Assembly (NCBI GenBank): GCA_944371905.1
Contig: CALVYA010000010.1
Span: 1-50,137 of the forward strand
Direction of reading: 5' to 3'
Origin: an uncultured Bacilli bacterium
Lineage (GTDB): Bacteria > Bacillota_I > Bacilli_A > RF39 > UBA660
Length of the DNA: 50,137 bases
The position numbers and the translations under genes are program-made. This document shows, one piece after another, positions 41,987 through 49,954 of this stretch. Under the pieces are notes generated by a model. The model searched no databases. It was not told where the DNA came from and saw only the letters and a list, made by a program, of their open reading frames with translations. Every line of letters starts with the position of its first letter. Within the stretch, counting starts at the first letter, position 1.

Positions 41987-42054
41987 TTCTACCCTCCATT
42001 TGATTAAAGTAAGAACAAATAAATATTTAAATTTTCGACTCTTTACAAAATAAG

Positions 42055-42110
42055 CTATTTGCCACAGCAATTTTTATACTTTTTTCCACTTCCGCATGTT
42101 CAAGCAATCC
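42055..42110 (-). pseudogene. Decayed SEC-C zinc motif (secA-tail remnant)
   Basis: On the minus strand, 42099 to 42055 reads [14 protein letters not shown] and a TAG stop, the end of a SEC-C motif ([14 protein letters not shown]) as found at the C-terminus of SecA. Just upstream the frame is closed by TGA (42100-42102). The preceding bases resemble the GAT-CCT-TGC-CCA codons of the motif with one extra base. No start or ribosome-binding site belongs to it. The living secA ends 5.4 kb away with [10 protein letters not shown], so this is not a simple copy of the same tail. Confidence 0.7.
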
Positions 42111-42292: not shown

Positions 42293-44194
42293 TTACAAAT
42301 TTAATAATTCTATTAATTTATCAAAAATTCTAATATAATCATCAGATATATTAGTTTTTGTGACATTTTCTGCTAAAGTAACTTTAAAATCTTTTATTAA
42401 TTTTTTTGCTTTTTTTGAATCTGTCTCATTATATCTAATCCATTCTTCTATTACAGATATATTTGCTACGGATTCATCATTTATTTTTTCCGTATTTATT
42501 TTTACTTTAAAAGCATTTCTATCTCCAAACTTATTACTCTCTGTAATTATATATTTAGGAGTATAAAAGTCTTCACAAGTTGATATTAATCTATCAATAT
42601 TGAACTCATCGTACTTGTACCATTTACCAGCATATCTTTCTTGCTCAAACACTTTTTTTTGATCAGAAGACACTTCATCTGCATCAGATATAATATAATA
42701 ATCTTTTGCCAACAATCCCCATAAACTTGCAAACTCTCTAAACTTTGTTGCTCCAGGCACATGTGTTAAACCAACTTTTTTAAATTTATTTTTTTTAGTT
42801 TTATTTAATTTATTCAATGCCACATGAAACAAATGTTTATCAATCCAGCCCTCAAAAACTAAATTCTTATCATTGATAATTGCATATACTTTCATTCCCA
42901 ATGCATTATATAACGTTTTTGCATTATCATAATTACTTTCATTAGCTTCTTCTATGCTTGTACATTCGCTATCTTTTGTAACAATATAATGTCTTCCTAT
43001 ATTAGTAGTATCGATCATAGATGTAGAGTGGGTTGAATAAAAAACATAATTATTTTTTCCAATATTAATTAATTCTTCTTTTAAATATTCTTGTCCGGGA
43101 ATATCTATTTTAGTTTCTGGCTCATCAATTAAAATTAGAGTGTTATTTAACTGTTTATTCTTATTTTTTACTGAAAGCATTATCATATATGTTATTAACC
43201 GTTTAAATCCATCACTTCTTTTATCCAATAAATATGAATTGTTAGTATCCCTTATTCTAATATTAATATTATCAACATTTTCCCTTAATTCCAACTTACA
43301 ATTTTTAGGCATACTTTTCCATATTTTTCTTAAATATATAGTGGTCTTTTCACTGACTTCATCTAATAAATTTTGAAATGATGCCTCTCCCATTTCTTTG
43401 CATTCATTATATTCTTCTTTAATGTTTGTAATATTATTTAATTCAAATATATACTTTAACGGTATGTTAATGTTTGGATTTTCTATAAAGCTTTTAATTG
43501 TGATAGAAGCAGGTAATAAGTACTCATCTTTATATTCCCAAAAAAGGACATCTGGAATATTATTATTAGCAATTTTCATCCCAAGTTCACAAAAATAATC
43601 GTGTAAATCTTCTGCAACTATTTTTATTAAGTTTTCACTGCTTACGTCATATTCATCTATATTAATAATTATTTTTTCTTTAATTTCATGTTGTTCTTGT
43701 GTTTCTTTATTGATAATACTAATTGGATTTTCTGGTGTTGCATTCAAAAATTTAAGATTATCATTTATTATATATTTATCATCATTATCTAAGATATAAT
43801 ATTTTAATAATCTTTCGCTTTTTCTTATATCTATATCATAAACATAATTAAAATCAAGAAAATCCAAAAGTTTTACGTACTTGCCATTAAACATTATAAA
43901 ACTATCTTTCTTTGATGAATATATTTTTTCTTGTGCCTTTTTATAAAATTCGATTTGTTCATCTTCTGACATTAACATAATAAATTCTATGTTTGATTCT
44001 TGGAAACTTCTTGTTCCCTCTTTAATAAATTCTTTAGTTAATTTAACACTATTATTCAAAGTCGATAATGCAAGTAATAAATTACTTTTACCACTCTCAC
44101 TTAATCCAACAAATATTTTGCATCCTCTGGTTATATCAATAGTGCATTCGTGAATAGACTTAAAATTTTTTATATTTACAGTTTTTAATATCAC
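42293..44194 (-). CDS. OLD-family ATPase with TOPRIM nuclease domain (probable phage defence)
   Basis: The 633 residues combine an ABC-type ATPase, split by an insertion, with a TOPRIM domain. Walker A is GLSESGKSN (30-38), the signature-like stretch is DKRSDGFKRL (334-343), Walker B LILIDEPET (363-371) and the H-loop YSTHS (386-390). TOPRIM residues are Glu448 in LVFEGWID and the DxD pair Asp504/Asp506 in ISDADE. OLD proteins are nucleases; relatives act in phage defence. No UvrD-like helicase (GajB), reverse transcriptase or AriB partner adjoins, so it fits a stand-alone OLD. It starts with GTG behind GGGAG. A dyad directly in front suggests regulation. Confidence 0.88.
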   Translation of the reverse strand: MILKTVNIKNFKSIHECTIDITRGCKIFVGLSESGKSNLLLALSTLNNSVKLTKEFIKEGTRSFQESNIEFIMLMSEDEQIEFYKKAQEKIYSSKKDSFIMFNGKYVKLLDFLDFNYVYDIDIRKSERLLKYYILDNDDKYIINDNLKFLNATPENPISIINKETQEQHEIKEKIIINIDEYDVSSENLIKIVAEDLHDYFCELGMKIANNNIPDVLFWEYKDEYLLPASITIKSFIENPNINIPLKYIFELNNITNIKEEYNECKEMGEASFQNLLDEVSEKTTIYLRKIWKSMPKNCKLELRENVDNINIRIRDTNNSYLLDKRSDGFKRLITYMIMLSVKNKNKQLNNTLILIDEPETKIDIPGQEYLKEELINIGKNNYVFYSTHSTSMIDTTNIGRHYIVTKDSECTSIEEANESNYDNAKTLYNALGMKVYAIINDKNLVFEGWIDKHLFHVALNKLNKTKKNKFKKVGLTHVPGATKFREFASLWGLLAKDYYIISDADEVSSDQKKVFEQERYAGKWYKYDEFNIDRLISTCEDFYTPKYIITESNKFGDRNAFKVKINTEKINDESVANISVIEEWIRYNETDSKKAKKLIKDFKVTLAENVTKTNISDDYIRIFDKLIELLNL

Positions 44195-44416: not shown

Positions 44417-45058
44417 TTATTTTTTGTTGATTTGTTTTTCAAATACATTACTAACATATTTCTTTGATTCTTTAGTAGTTGAAACGTAATAATTCTCTGT
44501 AGTTTCCACTCTACTATGACCTAATACTTCAGCGACATCTTTAATTTCTACACCACTTCTTAAAGTTTTAGTTGCAAAGCTTCCTCTTAAGTCATAGAAC
44601 CGGCAATTATTTATTCCTAGTTCATGATGTATAATCCTATATGGATAACGTATTAAATCCGTACCTATGTATCTTCCATTATCTTTAACAAACACTAAAT
44701 TTACTTTTTCTTTCTGCTTTGACTTGTATTTCAACTCAATTATTCTATTTTCCACTACTTTACCATACTTATTTTTAACTTCTTCTAGGTTATAATCATA
44801 ATATTTTGTTTTATATTTTTTTCTATTATTACTCTGATAATGATGATAAATTTTCAATACCTTTAATAAAGTTTCACATATATATACTTCTCTAACACTA
44901 CTATCAGTTTTTGTTGTGCCAAAAAACCATCTTCCTTTGTTATCTTTTGTTTTGCAATAAACTGTTTTATTAATTTTTATAATTCTATTTTCAAAATCTA
45001 TATCATCCCAAGTTAACGCACATACCTCTCCTGTTCTCATACCTGTAAAGCATGCCAC
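44417..45058 (-). CDS. Tyrosine integrase, C-terminal (catalytic) part
   Basis: This carries the catalytic half of a phage-type tyrosine recombinase: Arg in FTGMRTGEVCALTW, the box II region RFYDLRGSFATKTL with Arg, LGHSRVETTENYYVS with the His and the nucleophile Tyr, and a lysine-rich end. Box II has Tyr where many integrases have His; this YDLRGSFAT form recurs in Bacillota. The frame is open upstream to about 45150 and reads NHIYTNEEIEKILTRFKEN, so 45058 is only the first ATG, not a true start. It joins the N-terminal part through a -1 shift at an A8 run, giving 415 residues. Confidence 0.85.
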   Translation of the reverse strand: MACFTGMRTGEVCALTWDDIDFENRIIKINKTVYCKTKDNKGRWFFGTTKTDSSVREVYICETLLKVLKIYHHYQSNNRKKYKTKYYDYNLEEVKNKYGKVVENRIIELKYKSKQKEKVNLVFVKDNGRYIGTDLIRYPYRIIHHELGINNCRFYDLRGSFATKTLRSGVEIKDVAEVLGHSRVETTENYYVSTTKESKKYVSNVFEKQINKK

Positions 45059-45138
45059 TAAAAATGCACATATAAAAGTTTTGTTTTCTTTGAATCTAGT
45101 TAAAATTTTTTCTATCTCTTCATTAGTGTAAATATGAT

Positions 45139-45663
45139 TTATTCTGTTTTTTTTAAACCATATGATAGAACTCTAGGAATTGATAGTTCAACAGCTGGAT
45201 TATAATTTAAAAATCCAAAGTAATTTGTTGCATCTCTAAAAGAACTTTTTATTACTTTTTGATAAATTCTTAATGCATCTTTTGTTTTTACTTTTTGCGA
45301 TAATTTTAATAATGCTTGATTTAGTAAATATGGGGTTATTGAATATAACATATATTTTCCTAGTTCTGCTTTTATTGTTTTAAAAGTTTCTTTATATCTT
45401 TTTGCTGTGGAATACTTAAAATTAATTTCAAAATATTCACTCATCCAATAATCTAAGTAATCAGCGTATGTCATATTTGCCTGTTTATTAACTCCCCCAT
45501 TAATATATTCATCATAGGCTTTCATTCCGGCAATATATGCTTCATTTTTTGTTCTAAACCCTGATTTGTTGATAAACTTTCTTTTCCCATTTATTTTTGC
45601 AATTTCAAATTTATACTGATAAACCTTTCCTCTTTTTGTTACATTAACTCTCATATCATTCAT
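45139..45663 (-). CDS. Tyrosine integrase, N-terminal part (frame broken at an A8 run)
   Basis: This holds the arm-binding domain (KRGKVYQYKFEIAKINGKRKF) and the SAM-like core-binding domain (MTYADYLDYWMSEYF to the NPAVELSIPRV end) of a phage-type integrase. The reading stops at TAA (45139-45141) soon after GLKKTE, where an intact protein would continue. The break is at eight A (45147-45154 on plus as T); a -1 shift there restores the frame. In the zero frame the run holds A-AAA-AAA, a classical slippery sequence. I start at 45663 with AAGGA upstream; a TATAAT lies at 45702-45707. Confidence 0.82.
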   Translation of the reverse strand: MNDMRVNVTKRGKVYQYKFEIAKINGKRKFINKSGFRTKNEAYIAGMKAYDEYINGGVNKQANMTYADYLDYWMSEYFEINFKYSTAKRYKETFKTIKAELGKYMLYSITPYLLNQALLKLSQKVKTKDALRIYQKVIKSSFRDATNYFGFLNYNPAVELSIPRVLSYGLKKTE

Positions 45664-45727
45664 TCCTTTCCTTTTTCTATTTTTCATTTATTTACAAAAT
45701 CATTATAATTAACAACATCCAAATTAT

Positions 45728-45765: not shown

Positions 45766-46632
45766 TTAAGATACTGGTGTAAGCTCTTTTTGAAGTAATT
45801 TTATGATTATTTCTATGGCATCCATAACATCTTCATAGCTTATGTCTTTTACATATATCTTTTTAAGTTTATATCTATTAAAATTATTTTTTAATCTTTC
45901 ACTGTTTTTTATTAAATCAAAACTAGAAATAATCATATTTATATCGAATTTTGATTCCCGTCTTTCAAAAGTATTTTTGATTGCTTTTACCAAATCATCT
46001 TTATTAATATCATTATAAAATCTAGTTAATAAAATATACAAATCATAAAAATCTTTTGCTCTTGTGTTCATGATATTATCAGTAATAAATGTTTCAAATT
46101 TTTCAGCTATGATAGTTTCTTTATTAAACACCATAATATTAATATAAGAATCATCAAACATGCATTTATATTTAAAGTTTAATTCTTTAGGTGTAATAGG
46201 ATCTCCTACAGTGACATCAATTGCTAATGGTACTCTTAAATGTTCCTTATATCCAATTAATTTAACTTTTAATCCACCATATTTATCTATTAGTCTAATA
46301 TCTTTAATACTAACAATTTCAAAAGTTATTCCATCTTTACCATCAATACTTATTATTTCTTTTATTATTTTTTCTAGTATTTTAGCTTCTAATGGTATTC
46401 CTTTTAACATTGTATCCATATCTTGAGTAGTTCGACGTTCATCGCCAAATATTGCAGATAATAAAAGCCCACCTTTTAATATGAAATTATATTTGTATTT
46501 ACTAATTCCAATCCTATATAATAATCTTTCAAAAAAGTACATCTGCATAATATCTTGTGGTTCTAAATGATTTTCATGGGCTTTGGTTTTAATTTTTATT
46601 TTTAAATCTTCAGCATTAATAACATTTTTCAC
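45766..46632 (-). CDS. abiEii: AbiEii-type nucleotidyltransferase toxin
   Basis: The toxin of a type IV toxin-antitoxin system that aborts phage infection. The 288 residues belong to the DUF1814 nucleotidyltransferases: motif I is GGLLLSAIFGDERRTTQDMD (Gly54-Gly55, Asp71, Asp73), motif II VKLIGYK, motif III with IDVTVGD and motif IV IIAEKFETFI with NTRAKDFYDLYIL. It starts with GTG directly after the abiEi stop; GGAGG lies 11 nt upstream within abiEi, so the two are translationally coupled. Relatives block growth by adding nucleotides to tRNA. Confidence 0.92.
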   Translation of the reverse strand: MKNVINAEDLKIKIKTKAHENHLEPQDIMQMYFFERLLYRIGISKYKYNFILKGGLLLSAIFGDERRTTQDMDTMLKGIPLEAKILEKIIKEIISIDGKDGITFEIVSIKDIRLIDKYGGLKVKLIGYKEHLRVPLAIDVTVGDPITPKELNFKYKCMFDDSYINIMVFNKETIIAEKFETFITDNIMNTRAKDFYDLYILLTRFYNDINKDDLVKAIKNTFERRESKFDINMIISSFDLIKNSERLKNNFNRYKLKKIYVKDISYEDVMDAIEIIIKLLQKELTPVS

Positions 46633-47226
46633 TTACATTAACACCTCCAAATATCTATTAACTTCATCTTCGACATTAAGTTTTTTAGAATATTCTACTA
46701 ATTTTGGTAAATCTCTATTTTGCTTGTTCCTTAAATATTCAGTAATAGCATATTTAACAGTTTCTAAATCCTCTTTTTCTTTGTTTTTTAATAAATCACA
46801 AATACATCTTTCAGCATTATAACAAGTAATAATTTGGCCCTGTGGACTTTTAATTTCTATTTTTCCTAATTCAAAGATTTCTTTTTTTACAAAGTGTAAT
46901 TTTACATTATCCATATGTTTTAATTTCCCATTATATCCTCGGCAGACCGTAATGTGATAAATACTTGGAACTGTTTCACATAAACCTAAAAAATAAAGTG
47001 CTGTATCGTGTGAAAAAGTAGCGTTGTTTCCATAAATTAAATTAAAATATTCATCTCCCCAAGTATTTGGTAAAATATATAATCCATTTTTTACTCTTTC
47101 TATTTTGCCAGCTTTAACTAATCTTGTTAAAAATACACTATTAATACCATGTTTACAAACTTCTTTTGTTGTGATTATACCATTATTTACTTTAATTAGA
47201 TTTAAAATTTGCTCTTCTTTATTCAT
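46633..47226 (-). CDS. abiEi: AbiEi-type antitoxin and repressor
   Basis: The antitoxin of the AbiE system. The 197 residues begin with a winged helix (about 1-52: QILNLIKVNNGIITTKEVCK, then INSVFLTRLVKAGKIERVKNGLYI), which in relatives binds the promoter, followed by the AbiEi C-terminal domain with FSHDTALYFLGL, ITVCRGYNGK, IKSPQGQIITCYNAERCICDLL. It precedes the toxin, as usual. A 9-bp inverted repeat surrounds its promoter. AAGGAA lies before ATG. It is the first element gene after secA, separated from it by a hairpin. Confidence 0.92.
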   Translation of the reverse strand: MNKEEQILNLIKVNNGIITTKEVCKHGINSVFLTRLVKAGKIERVKNGLYILPNTWGDEYFNLIYGNNATFSHDTALYFLGLCETVPSIYHITVCRGYNGKLKHMDNVKLHFVKKEIFELGKIEIKSPQGQIITCYNAERCICDLLKNKEKEDLETVKYAITEYLRNKQNRDLPKLVEYSKKLNVEDEVNRYLEVLM

Positions 47227-47351: not shown

Positions 47352-47459
47352 AAGGTATTTTGCAGTATTTCAACTCTTTTTGCAAACAATTTCAATATTT
47401 TTTTATTTTCTATTTTTTCTAAAATACATGTATTGCCTTATTTTATAAGGTATTATGCA
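47352..47459. repeat. Short repeats at the secA end of the element
   Basis: AAGGTATTTTGCA (47352-47364) and AAGGTATTATGCA (47447-47459) differ at one base; GTATTTCAA at 47365 also occurs at 42149. CCTTAT/ATAAGG (47436-47441 with 47445-47450) and the palindrome ATACATGTAT (47424-47433) lie between. They may be integrase arm sites. Confidence 0.45.
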
Positions 47460-49954
47460 TCACGGCCATGACAAAATTTATATTTTTTGCCCGAACCACA
47501 TGGGCAAAGATCATTTCTACCAATTTTTTTGCTTTTTTTAGGTTGAGCTTTAATAGCATCTTTACCATCATTAGTTATTTTATCTTTAGCCACTTCTTTT
47601 CTTTCAATGTTTTGTTTAATCTCTGATTTAACTAAGAAAATAGTAACATCTTTATCAATATTTTGTAACATATTGTCAAACATTTGATATCCTTCTACAG
47701 TATAAGCACGTAGTGGATCATCATGTCCATAACTTCTTAAATGAATTCCTTCTCTTAAATGGGACATTGTATTAATATGTTCTGTCCAATACTTATCAAT
47801 AATATTTAAAACAATTACTTTTTCAAATTCGTCTGAAATTTCTTTTGGAACCACTTTTATTTTTTCTTCATATTCTTCTACAATAATATTATATATTATT
47901 TCAATAATATCGTCTTCGTTACGTCCTTCTAAATCTTTAAAATTTAATTCTTTCTTTAATAAATTTTCGTTTGCAAATTCAACAATCTCTTTAATATCAT
48001 CATCTGTTAGTTTTCCTTCTGGATAAACGTGAGATTTAATTAAATCCATAACATGATTATGAACAGCATTTAAAACTGTATTATGAATAGATTCATTGTC
48101 CAAAATTTCATTTCTTTTAGCATATATAATTTCTCTTTGATTATTCATCACATCATCATATTGCAATAATTGTTTACGAATATCAAAATTATTACCTTCC
48201 ACTCTAGATTGTGCAGTTGCAATCGCCTTTGAGAAAGTTTTAGATTTAATACATTGATCTTCAGTAAAACCTAATGTTTGCATCATCATCTTGATTCTAT
48301 CACTACCGAATCTAACCATTAAATCGTCTTCCATAGACACATAAAATTGAGTAAATCCAGGATCTCCTTGACGACCAGAACGACCTCTTAACTGATTATC
48401 AATACGACGAGATTCATGCCTTTCAGTACCTAATACACACAATCCACCTAATTCTTTTACTTCGTCGGTTAACTTAATATCTGTTCCACGTCCAGCCATA
48501 TTAGTAGCAATAGTTACTGCTTTCTTTTCACCCGCTTTTGCAATGATTTCAGCTTCTCTTGCATGGTTTTTTGCATTTAATACTTCATGAGGTATTTTCT
48601 TTTTTTTCAATAAATCACTAATTAATTCATTAGTTTCAATAGCAATAGTACCAACTAGAACAGGTTGTCCTAATTTATATCTTCTTTCGATTTCATTTAT
48701 TAATGCTTTATATTTACCAACTTTAGTAGCATAAACAAGATCTGGTTCATCATCTCTTATTACTTCCTTATTAGTCGGTATACAAATAACAAACATATTA
48801 TAAATATTTCTAAATTCTTCTTCTTCTGTTTTTGCAGTACCTGTCATACCAGATAATTTTTTATACATTCTAAATAAATTTTGAAAAGTAATAGTAGCAA
48901 GAGTTTTAGTTTCTTGTTGAATCTTAACTCCTTCTTTAGCTTCAATAGCTTGATGAAGACCATCACTAAAAGCACGGCCTTTCATTAAACGCCCCGTAAA
49001 TTGATCAACAATTACTACTTGCCCATCTTGAACTACATAATCAACATCATTTCTCATAGAATAATTAGCTTTCAACGCTTGATTGATATGATGTACTAAA
49101 CTAGTTTGATTAATATCATATAAGTTATCCACTTTAAAATACTGTTCACCTTTTTTTACTCCATCTTCTGTAAGACTAACAGATTTTGTTTTCTCATCAT
49201 AAATATAATCTTCTTCTTTTTTTAAACTTTTAACAAAACTATCAGCATCCGTATAAAGGCGAGCACTTTTCATCTCACCACCTGATATAATCAAAGGCGT
49301 TCTGGCTTCATCTATCAAAACAGAATCAACTTCATCGATAATAGCAAAATTTAGTCCTCTTTGAACTCTATTTTCACTGCGAACGACCATATTGTCACGA
49401 AGATAATCAAAACCTAATTCATTATTTGTAGTATACAAAATATCACATTCATATTGTTCCTTTTTTTCTTTTGCACTTAAACTTCTAAGGTTAGTACCAA
49501 CCGTAAGTCCTAAAAATCTGTGAATATTACCCATCCAATTCGCATCACGATCAGCCAAATATTCATTAACAGTAACTATATGCACCCCGTTACCAGTTAA
49601 AGCATTTAAATATGCTGGCATAACACTAGTTAAAGTTTTACCTTCTCCTGTTTTCATCTCAGCAATATTTCCAAAATGAATTGCAATAGCACCCAATAAC
49701 TGTACATAGTAAGGTTTTTCACCAATTACCCTAAAACAAGCTTCCCTTGCTGTTGCATAAGCTTCAACTAATATATCTTCAAGAGTTTCTCCTTTATTTA
49801 ATCTTTCTTTAAACTCATCTGTTTTAGCTTGTAATTCATAATCACTTAATTTTGTATATTCCTCATCTAAAGCATCAATTTTATCAGCTAATGCAGAGAA
49901 TTTTTTTAATTCTTTGTATTCATGATCGAATAAATTTCTAAATATGCCCATCAT
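47453..49954 (-). CDS. secA: Preprotein translocase ATPase SecA
   Basis: SecA drives export through SecYEG. The 833 residues contain Walker [13 protein letters not shown] (99-110), [15 protein letters not shown] (about 206-220), the preprotein cross-linking domain, [11 protein letters not shown], the [13 protein letters not shown] helicase motif, the helical scaffold and a C-terminal SEC-C zinc motif [18 protein letters not shown] just before the end. The tail KFCHGRDA differs from the stranded KNCCGK remnant. The start has AGGAG 5 nt upstream. A strong promoter lies 20 nt further up. The element described here begins right behind its stop. Confidence 0.97.

Follow-up and report, generated by a model that had tools for sequence, protein, structure and literature searches.

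An integrase gene in two frames downstream of secA

The window analysed here, 50,137 nucleotides of a contig from an uncultured Bacilli bacterium, carries on its minus strand a tyrosine integrase gene (44417..45687) that is split between two reading frames. The first half, identified from the ORF list and Pfam, is a zero-frame ORF (45142..45687; stop-inclusive 45687-45139) encoding a short product of at most 182 aa, hereafter IntN, which contains arm-binding and core-binding domains (Arm-DNA-bind_4 and Phage_int_SAM_3) without a catalytic domain. The second half is an open region in the -1 frame (~45172 to 44417, minus strand), encoding the end of a linker followed by a tyrosine-recombinase catalytic domain (Phage_integrase, PF00589, E 8e-24). 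Read in the first-half frame, the junction on the minus strand (45139-45172) contains GGT TTA AAA AAA ACA GAA TAA; the T8 at 45147-45154 of the plus strand is thus an A8 run on the coding strand, and the zero-frame stop TAA (45139..45141) is the third codon past AAA AAA. Since the -1 frame is open for 18 nt before the run and the zero frame is shut 5 nt after it, a shift is possible only within the 34-nt overlap of the two frames, as read from the sequence of the window junction. This overlap holds, in the zero frame, a slippery heptamer of the X_XXY_YYZ type, namely A_AAA_AAA (45154-45148, with the eighth A at 45147), and the -1 frame would be used from 45148 on.

The ORFs overlap in 0 and -1 register and jointly encode one known type of protein, with the arm-binding, core-binding and catalytic domains in that order according to Pfam, structure models and solved relatives. 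An earlier note on this DNA had described two integrase halves in different frames that a -1 shift at the A8 run, read as A-AAA-AAA in the zero frame, joins into a protein of 415 residues with all domains; the sequence and the ORFs bear this out, the count of 415 aa holding from the second ATG and becoming 423 aa from the first. A pattern search recovered TGMR, YDLR, LGH and TTENYY in the window copy as putative catalytic boxes, with the Tyr of YDLR replacing the usual first His. By the same kind of search, 23 of 27 split integrases have Y-D-L-R where H-x-x-R is usual (the pattern could not read the other four), as do 45 of 113 intact ones.

The AlphaFold2 model of IntN (pLDDT 83.8) begins with an arm domain, continues with a core-binding domain and ends in coil, and its best Foldseek match is lambda integrase (1z1b, E 5.7e-5), of which it resembles the first half. 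In the model of an intact relative (L094 in our numbering of loci; pLDDT 86.8) the last core-binding helix spans residues 129-148 and is separated by coil (149-178) from the first catalytic helix, which begins at 179. Alignment to this model places the frameshift junction in the coil between the core-binding and catalytic domains. The best solved relatives are 6en0/6emy (Tn1549 Int) by sequence and 6en2 by fold.

The integrase gene lies on an island next to secA (47453-49954, minus strand). An attL-like site (47440..47505, minus strand) corresponds to the 3' end of secA and encodes 15 residues and a stop, while an attR-like remnant (42040..42104, minus strand) encodes 13 residues and a stop and looks like a displaced older secA 3' end, so that the island would span ~42.04-47.5 kb. 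The pattern that matches at 42074 has one further match in the window, and since 11 of 100 shuffles gave at least two, the attR-like call rests mainly on the coding match. The secA of the window now ends in CHGRDA and the displaced copy in CCGK. All on the minus strand, the cargo includes an AbiEi-type antitoxin (46633..47226), an AbiEii-type nucleotidyltransferase toxin (45766..46632) and a defence-type, OLD-like AAA ATPase/TOPRIM nuclease (42293..44194); no excisionase gene was recognised in the window island.

In related genomes, split and intact integrases alike are often found just after secA, and 30-90 bp from the 3' end of secA recur further along several islands, among them those at L172 (60 columns, 92%), L160 (33 columns, 97%) and L143 (88 columns, 76%); in other loci examined, such a repeat was not found. 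Judged from these sequences, the attachment site of the integrase family appears to be the 3' end of secA. Neither the window nor any of 26 loci yielded a tRNA att site, and titles and opening lines of abstracts in the open-access literature gave no report of secA as a known integration site. At least two integrase copies lie close together at L078, L083, L172, L092 and other loci, several of them beside secA, which suggests islands stacked at one site. Between secA and the split integrase of L169 lies a gene of the tryptophanyl/tyrosyl-tRNA synthetase family (PF00579; L169:3719-4708), possibly a cargo copy, and the integrase of L077 is accompanied by a KilA-N protein (L077:3536-4417) that matches the PADLOC model PDC-S22 (E 1.1e-117) and is a candidate defence protein.

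Conservation of the split and selection at the junction

Searches with the joined protein gave matches in 36 of 194 related genomes, 80 of 385 from the family and 56 of 385 from the order, these sets overlapping, and the matches of many relatives break at one common residue. Reading the junction DNA in the fetched loci yielded 37 distinct split candidates, of which 34 were scored after removal of a non-junction, a fragment and a truncated copy. The zero frame contains A_AAA_AAA in 30 of the 34 scored junctions (27 with A8, two with A9, one with A10); the 27 A8 runs lie in the phase NNA AAA AAA ANN, TAA or TAG is the third codon past AAA AAA in 26 of them, and both A9 copies and the A10 copy are still split by -1. 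Among eight split copies held out, from genomes first met in the order-wide search, seven have A8 in the same phase and the eighth (L207 copy 2) is a degraded A7.

All 22 copies that pass a full-length filter require a -1 shift; the filter demands that both halves be long and presupposes the -1 frame, so that L070 could not enter. In these copies the alternative frame contains 17-30 stops over each half. The six full-length held-out copies likewise keep both the run and the -1 split. The four remaining scored junctions carry A7 (L159, L083 copy 2, L172 copy 3 and L070). L159, L083 copy 2 and L172 copy 3, like L207 copy 2, have other lesions in addition, and L070/L168 is otherwise undamaged and one base out of register, so that it would need a +1 or -2 shift. 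Decaying integrase copies occur at L015, L016, L076, L131, L132 and L172. The apparent intactness of L070 and L079 in one classification was an artefact of overlapping alignments. The near-identical integrases of L131 and L132 (97% over the first 61 catalytic residues) are both cut in the C half after ...IIKIN by inserted DNA, whose frame resembles what we take to be an IS1595-type transposase. A search of a phage collection returned four short matches only, and viral contigs contained only distant relatives (at most 33% identity), none classed as split.

By itself, A8 in the integrase phase is not rare. In 322 ordinary genes (355 kb) from the window and loci L176-L195, representing five genomes that carry split integrases, it occurs 40 times against 43-49 expected; A7 and A8 are tolerated in the coding sequence of these genes, and runs of at least nine A occur five times in all three phases against 71-92 expected. 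It is the recurrence of the split at one and the same position, conserved across dozens of divergent copies, that exceeds chance.

In a quick, unrooted maximum-likelihood tree of 86 sequences, all 18 split integrases form one clade (SH-aLRT 99), and none of the 68 intact relatives falls inside it; proteins of fewer than 300 residues had been dropped and 54 of 140 near-copies removed, and L070 is absent. The simplest reading of this tree would be a single gain of the split arrangement. Both halves appear constrained, with dN/dS mostly 0.05-0.27 among the 14 least diverged pairs (for the two halves, 0.20 and 0.24 in L164/L078 and 0.10 and 0.16 in L170/L164). Some close pairs have C-half values of 0.36-0.57, in genes that are mosaic in the last third, and in two the N-half values reach 2.0-2.5 on the basis of very few changes. 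In most pairs among L157, L160, L161, L174 and L162 the first two thirds are near-identical and identity drops abruptly in the last third, perhaps as a result of recombination that swaps cargo.

The codons of the junction were compared in 19 non-redundant copies (the 22 minus three near-duplicates). The two junction lysines are each encoded by AAA in 19 of 19, while each of the other 16 conserved Lys columns contains AAG in at least one copy (68 of 294 codons in total). Likewise, the Ile/Val codon whose last two bases begin the zero-frame stop is NTA in all 16 copies that have this residue, compared with genome usages of 0.39 for ATA and 0.43 for GTA. No probability is attached to these counts because the copies share ancestry. 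In the 29 intact relatives examined, this linker varies and lacks an A-run, indicating that the run is not kept for the sake of the protein; the site is conserved and under selection beyond protein coding.

Probable programmed slippage and its alternatives

We consider it very probable, from this comparison of sequences, that the integrase gene contains a conserved programmed -1 frameshift, acting at the ribosomal or the transcriptional level. Its conservation in many genomes of a family of uncultured gut bacteria makes the split look like a throttle built into the gene and not like damage. The earlier note had listed programmed frameshifting among several options and named, as evidence in its favour, a split frame with a conserved A7-A8 run in orthologues; such a run, mostly A8, is what we found across the clade, together with the -1 split in all 22 copies that passed the full-length filter and in the six full-length held-out ones. 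Under programmed frameshifting, most decoding would stop at the zero-frame TAA just past A8 and yield IntN, the two DNA-binding domains alone, and an occasional slip on A_AAA_AAA A, presumably at low frequency, would lead into the -1 frame and produce the full integrase, which we expect to be the active recombinase. IntN may then occupy att sites or form mixed complexes and so restrain excision of the secA island, in the manner of InsA and OrfA of IS1 and IS3.

Whether the slip would take place on the ribosome is in our view about evenly balanced. Stimulators are common in programmed -1 genes, not required by them, and none was recognised here. No conserved downstream RNA structure was detected in 16 copies (z -1.35 to +2.14 against shuffles that preserved single-base composition only; consensus fold empty), and no Shine-Dalgarno-like stimulator was found at the usual distance in the split copies. 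That A8 is barely avoided in ordinary genes suggests that a bare A8 is probably weakly slippery, which is consistent with a low dose of integrase. The earlier note had also suggested that the dose of integrase would be coupled to ribosome slippage, and such a coupling may exist. In E. coli, A_AAA_AAA is less prone to shifting than A_AAA_AAG, according to published data (PMC5009743).

The alternative level is transcription, where the polymerase would slip on A8 so that some of the mRNA contains A9 and encodes the full integrase in a single reading frame. As a special case of programmed frameshifting it would give the identical two protein products, and we regard it as a serious possibility with somewhat less than an even chance of being right. 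It would fit the uninterrupted run, the junction Lys codons that are never AAG, the eighth A, which is superfluous for ribosomal tandem slippage and is kept in all A8 copies, the lack of detected ribosomal stimulators and the avoidance of runs of at least nine A in all phases. Also in its favour, seven A can suffice for slippage of the polymerase in the IS1447 group of Firmicutes (PMC6211511). On the other hand, every full-length copy counted has its run in the phase needed for ribosomal slippage, the majority of runs, being A8, fall short of the nine A usually cited for polymerase slippage, and A8 itself is barely avoided in ordinary genes.

Replication slippage from A8 to A9 that turns the integrase on in some cells, a phase variation that the earlier note had kept in view, is improbable. 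The site is a homopolymer, the clade also contains runs of A7, A9 and A10, and cells in the ON state might excise the island and so escape sampling; against this, no in-frame (A9-type) allele was seen among the full-length split copies (22 filtered and six held out), the two A9 copies and the A10 copy remain -1 split, A8 is short for a phase-variable tract, and phase variation would not predict selection for the zero-frame stop. We find it equally hard to credit that the halves are two separately translated proteins, the C half with its own start, which assemble as a split integrase. Constraint on both halves and an overlap of few bases would agree with such an arrangement, but in 11 of the 22 full-length copies the C frame offers no ATG, GTG or TTG ahead of the catalytic TGxR motif, such a start would deprive the catalytic domain of its first helices, and it would be left unexplained why the A-run and its codons are conserved. 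A recent inactivating mutation and a sequencing or assembly error (the earlier note had raised recent mutation and sequencing error) are effectively excluded for the clade by the number of independent copies: several copies do show decay, but the same split recurs in many genomes from unrelated projects with both frames under constraint.

Comparison with known systems

Programmed frameshifting is classic for DDE transposases. Much as in this integrase, IS3-family and IS1 elements (OrfA/OrfAB, InsA/InsAB') have overlapping DNA-binding and catalytic ORFs that are joined by frameshifting, and their upstream DNA-binding ORF can regulate (PMC5009743). Their enzymes are DDE transposases of insertion sequences, whereas here the enzyme is a tyrosine site-specific integrase on a secA island; its catalytic half is a PF00589 tyrosine recombinase and not a DDE transposase, which sets it apart from IS3 and IS1 insertion sequences. 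In addition, many IS frameshift sites have stimulators, while none was found at the integrase site. The IS1447 group resembles the integrase in having an A homopolymer (transcriptional slippage at A9) in a recombinase of a mobile element of Bacillota, but it belongs to the IS3 family of transposases and its slippage was shown by experiment, whereas for the integrase slippage is predicted from sequence. By analogy with IS1 and IS3, the integrase clade may have gained the same logic independently, with IntN, lacking catalysis, as the main product and a dominant brake on the scarce full-length enzyme, and with excision from the end of the essential gene secA throttled by slippage frequency alone, a proposal that we hold to be as plausible as its negation.

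Tyrosine integrases of the Tn1549/Tn916 type and of lambda have the same arm, core-binding and catalytic domains. To our knowledge their genes are single frames, unlike those of the present clade, which are split at the linker. In symbiosis islands of Mesorhizobium a programmed ribosomal frameshift controls excision of the element, there by way of FseA, a regulator required for transcription of the excisionase gene and not the integrase (PMC5882170). The suicidal (partitioned) integrases of archaea are likewise present in the chromosome as an N and a C part (PMC8371274), but in these the integration itself splits the gene into two separate parts, whereas the two halves here overlap at a single place, in different frames. 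A programmed frameshift in a tyrosine integrase was not reported in the titles and abstract openings surveyed in the open-access literature, and passages of PMC4066793, PMC3711429, PMC10885494 and PMC8138268 describe none; the two-thirds covered of the main review of the field (PMC5009743) do not mention integrase, recombinase or tyrosine.

If the frameshift is real, it would be wrong to dismiss frame-split integrases of low-GC genomes as pseudogenes, and the secA family, with its frameshifted and intact members, would offer a natural comparison for what the throttle does.
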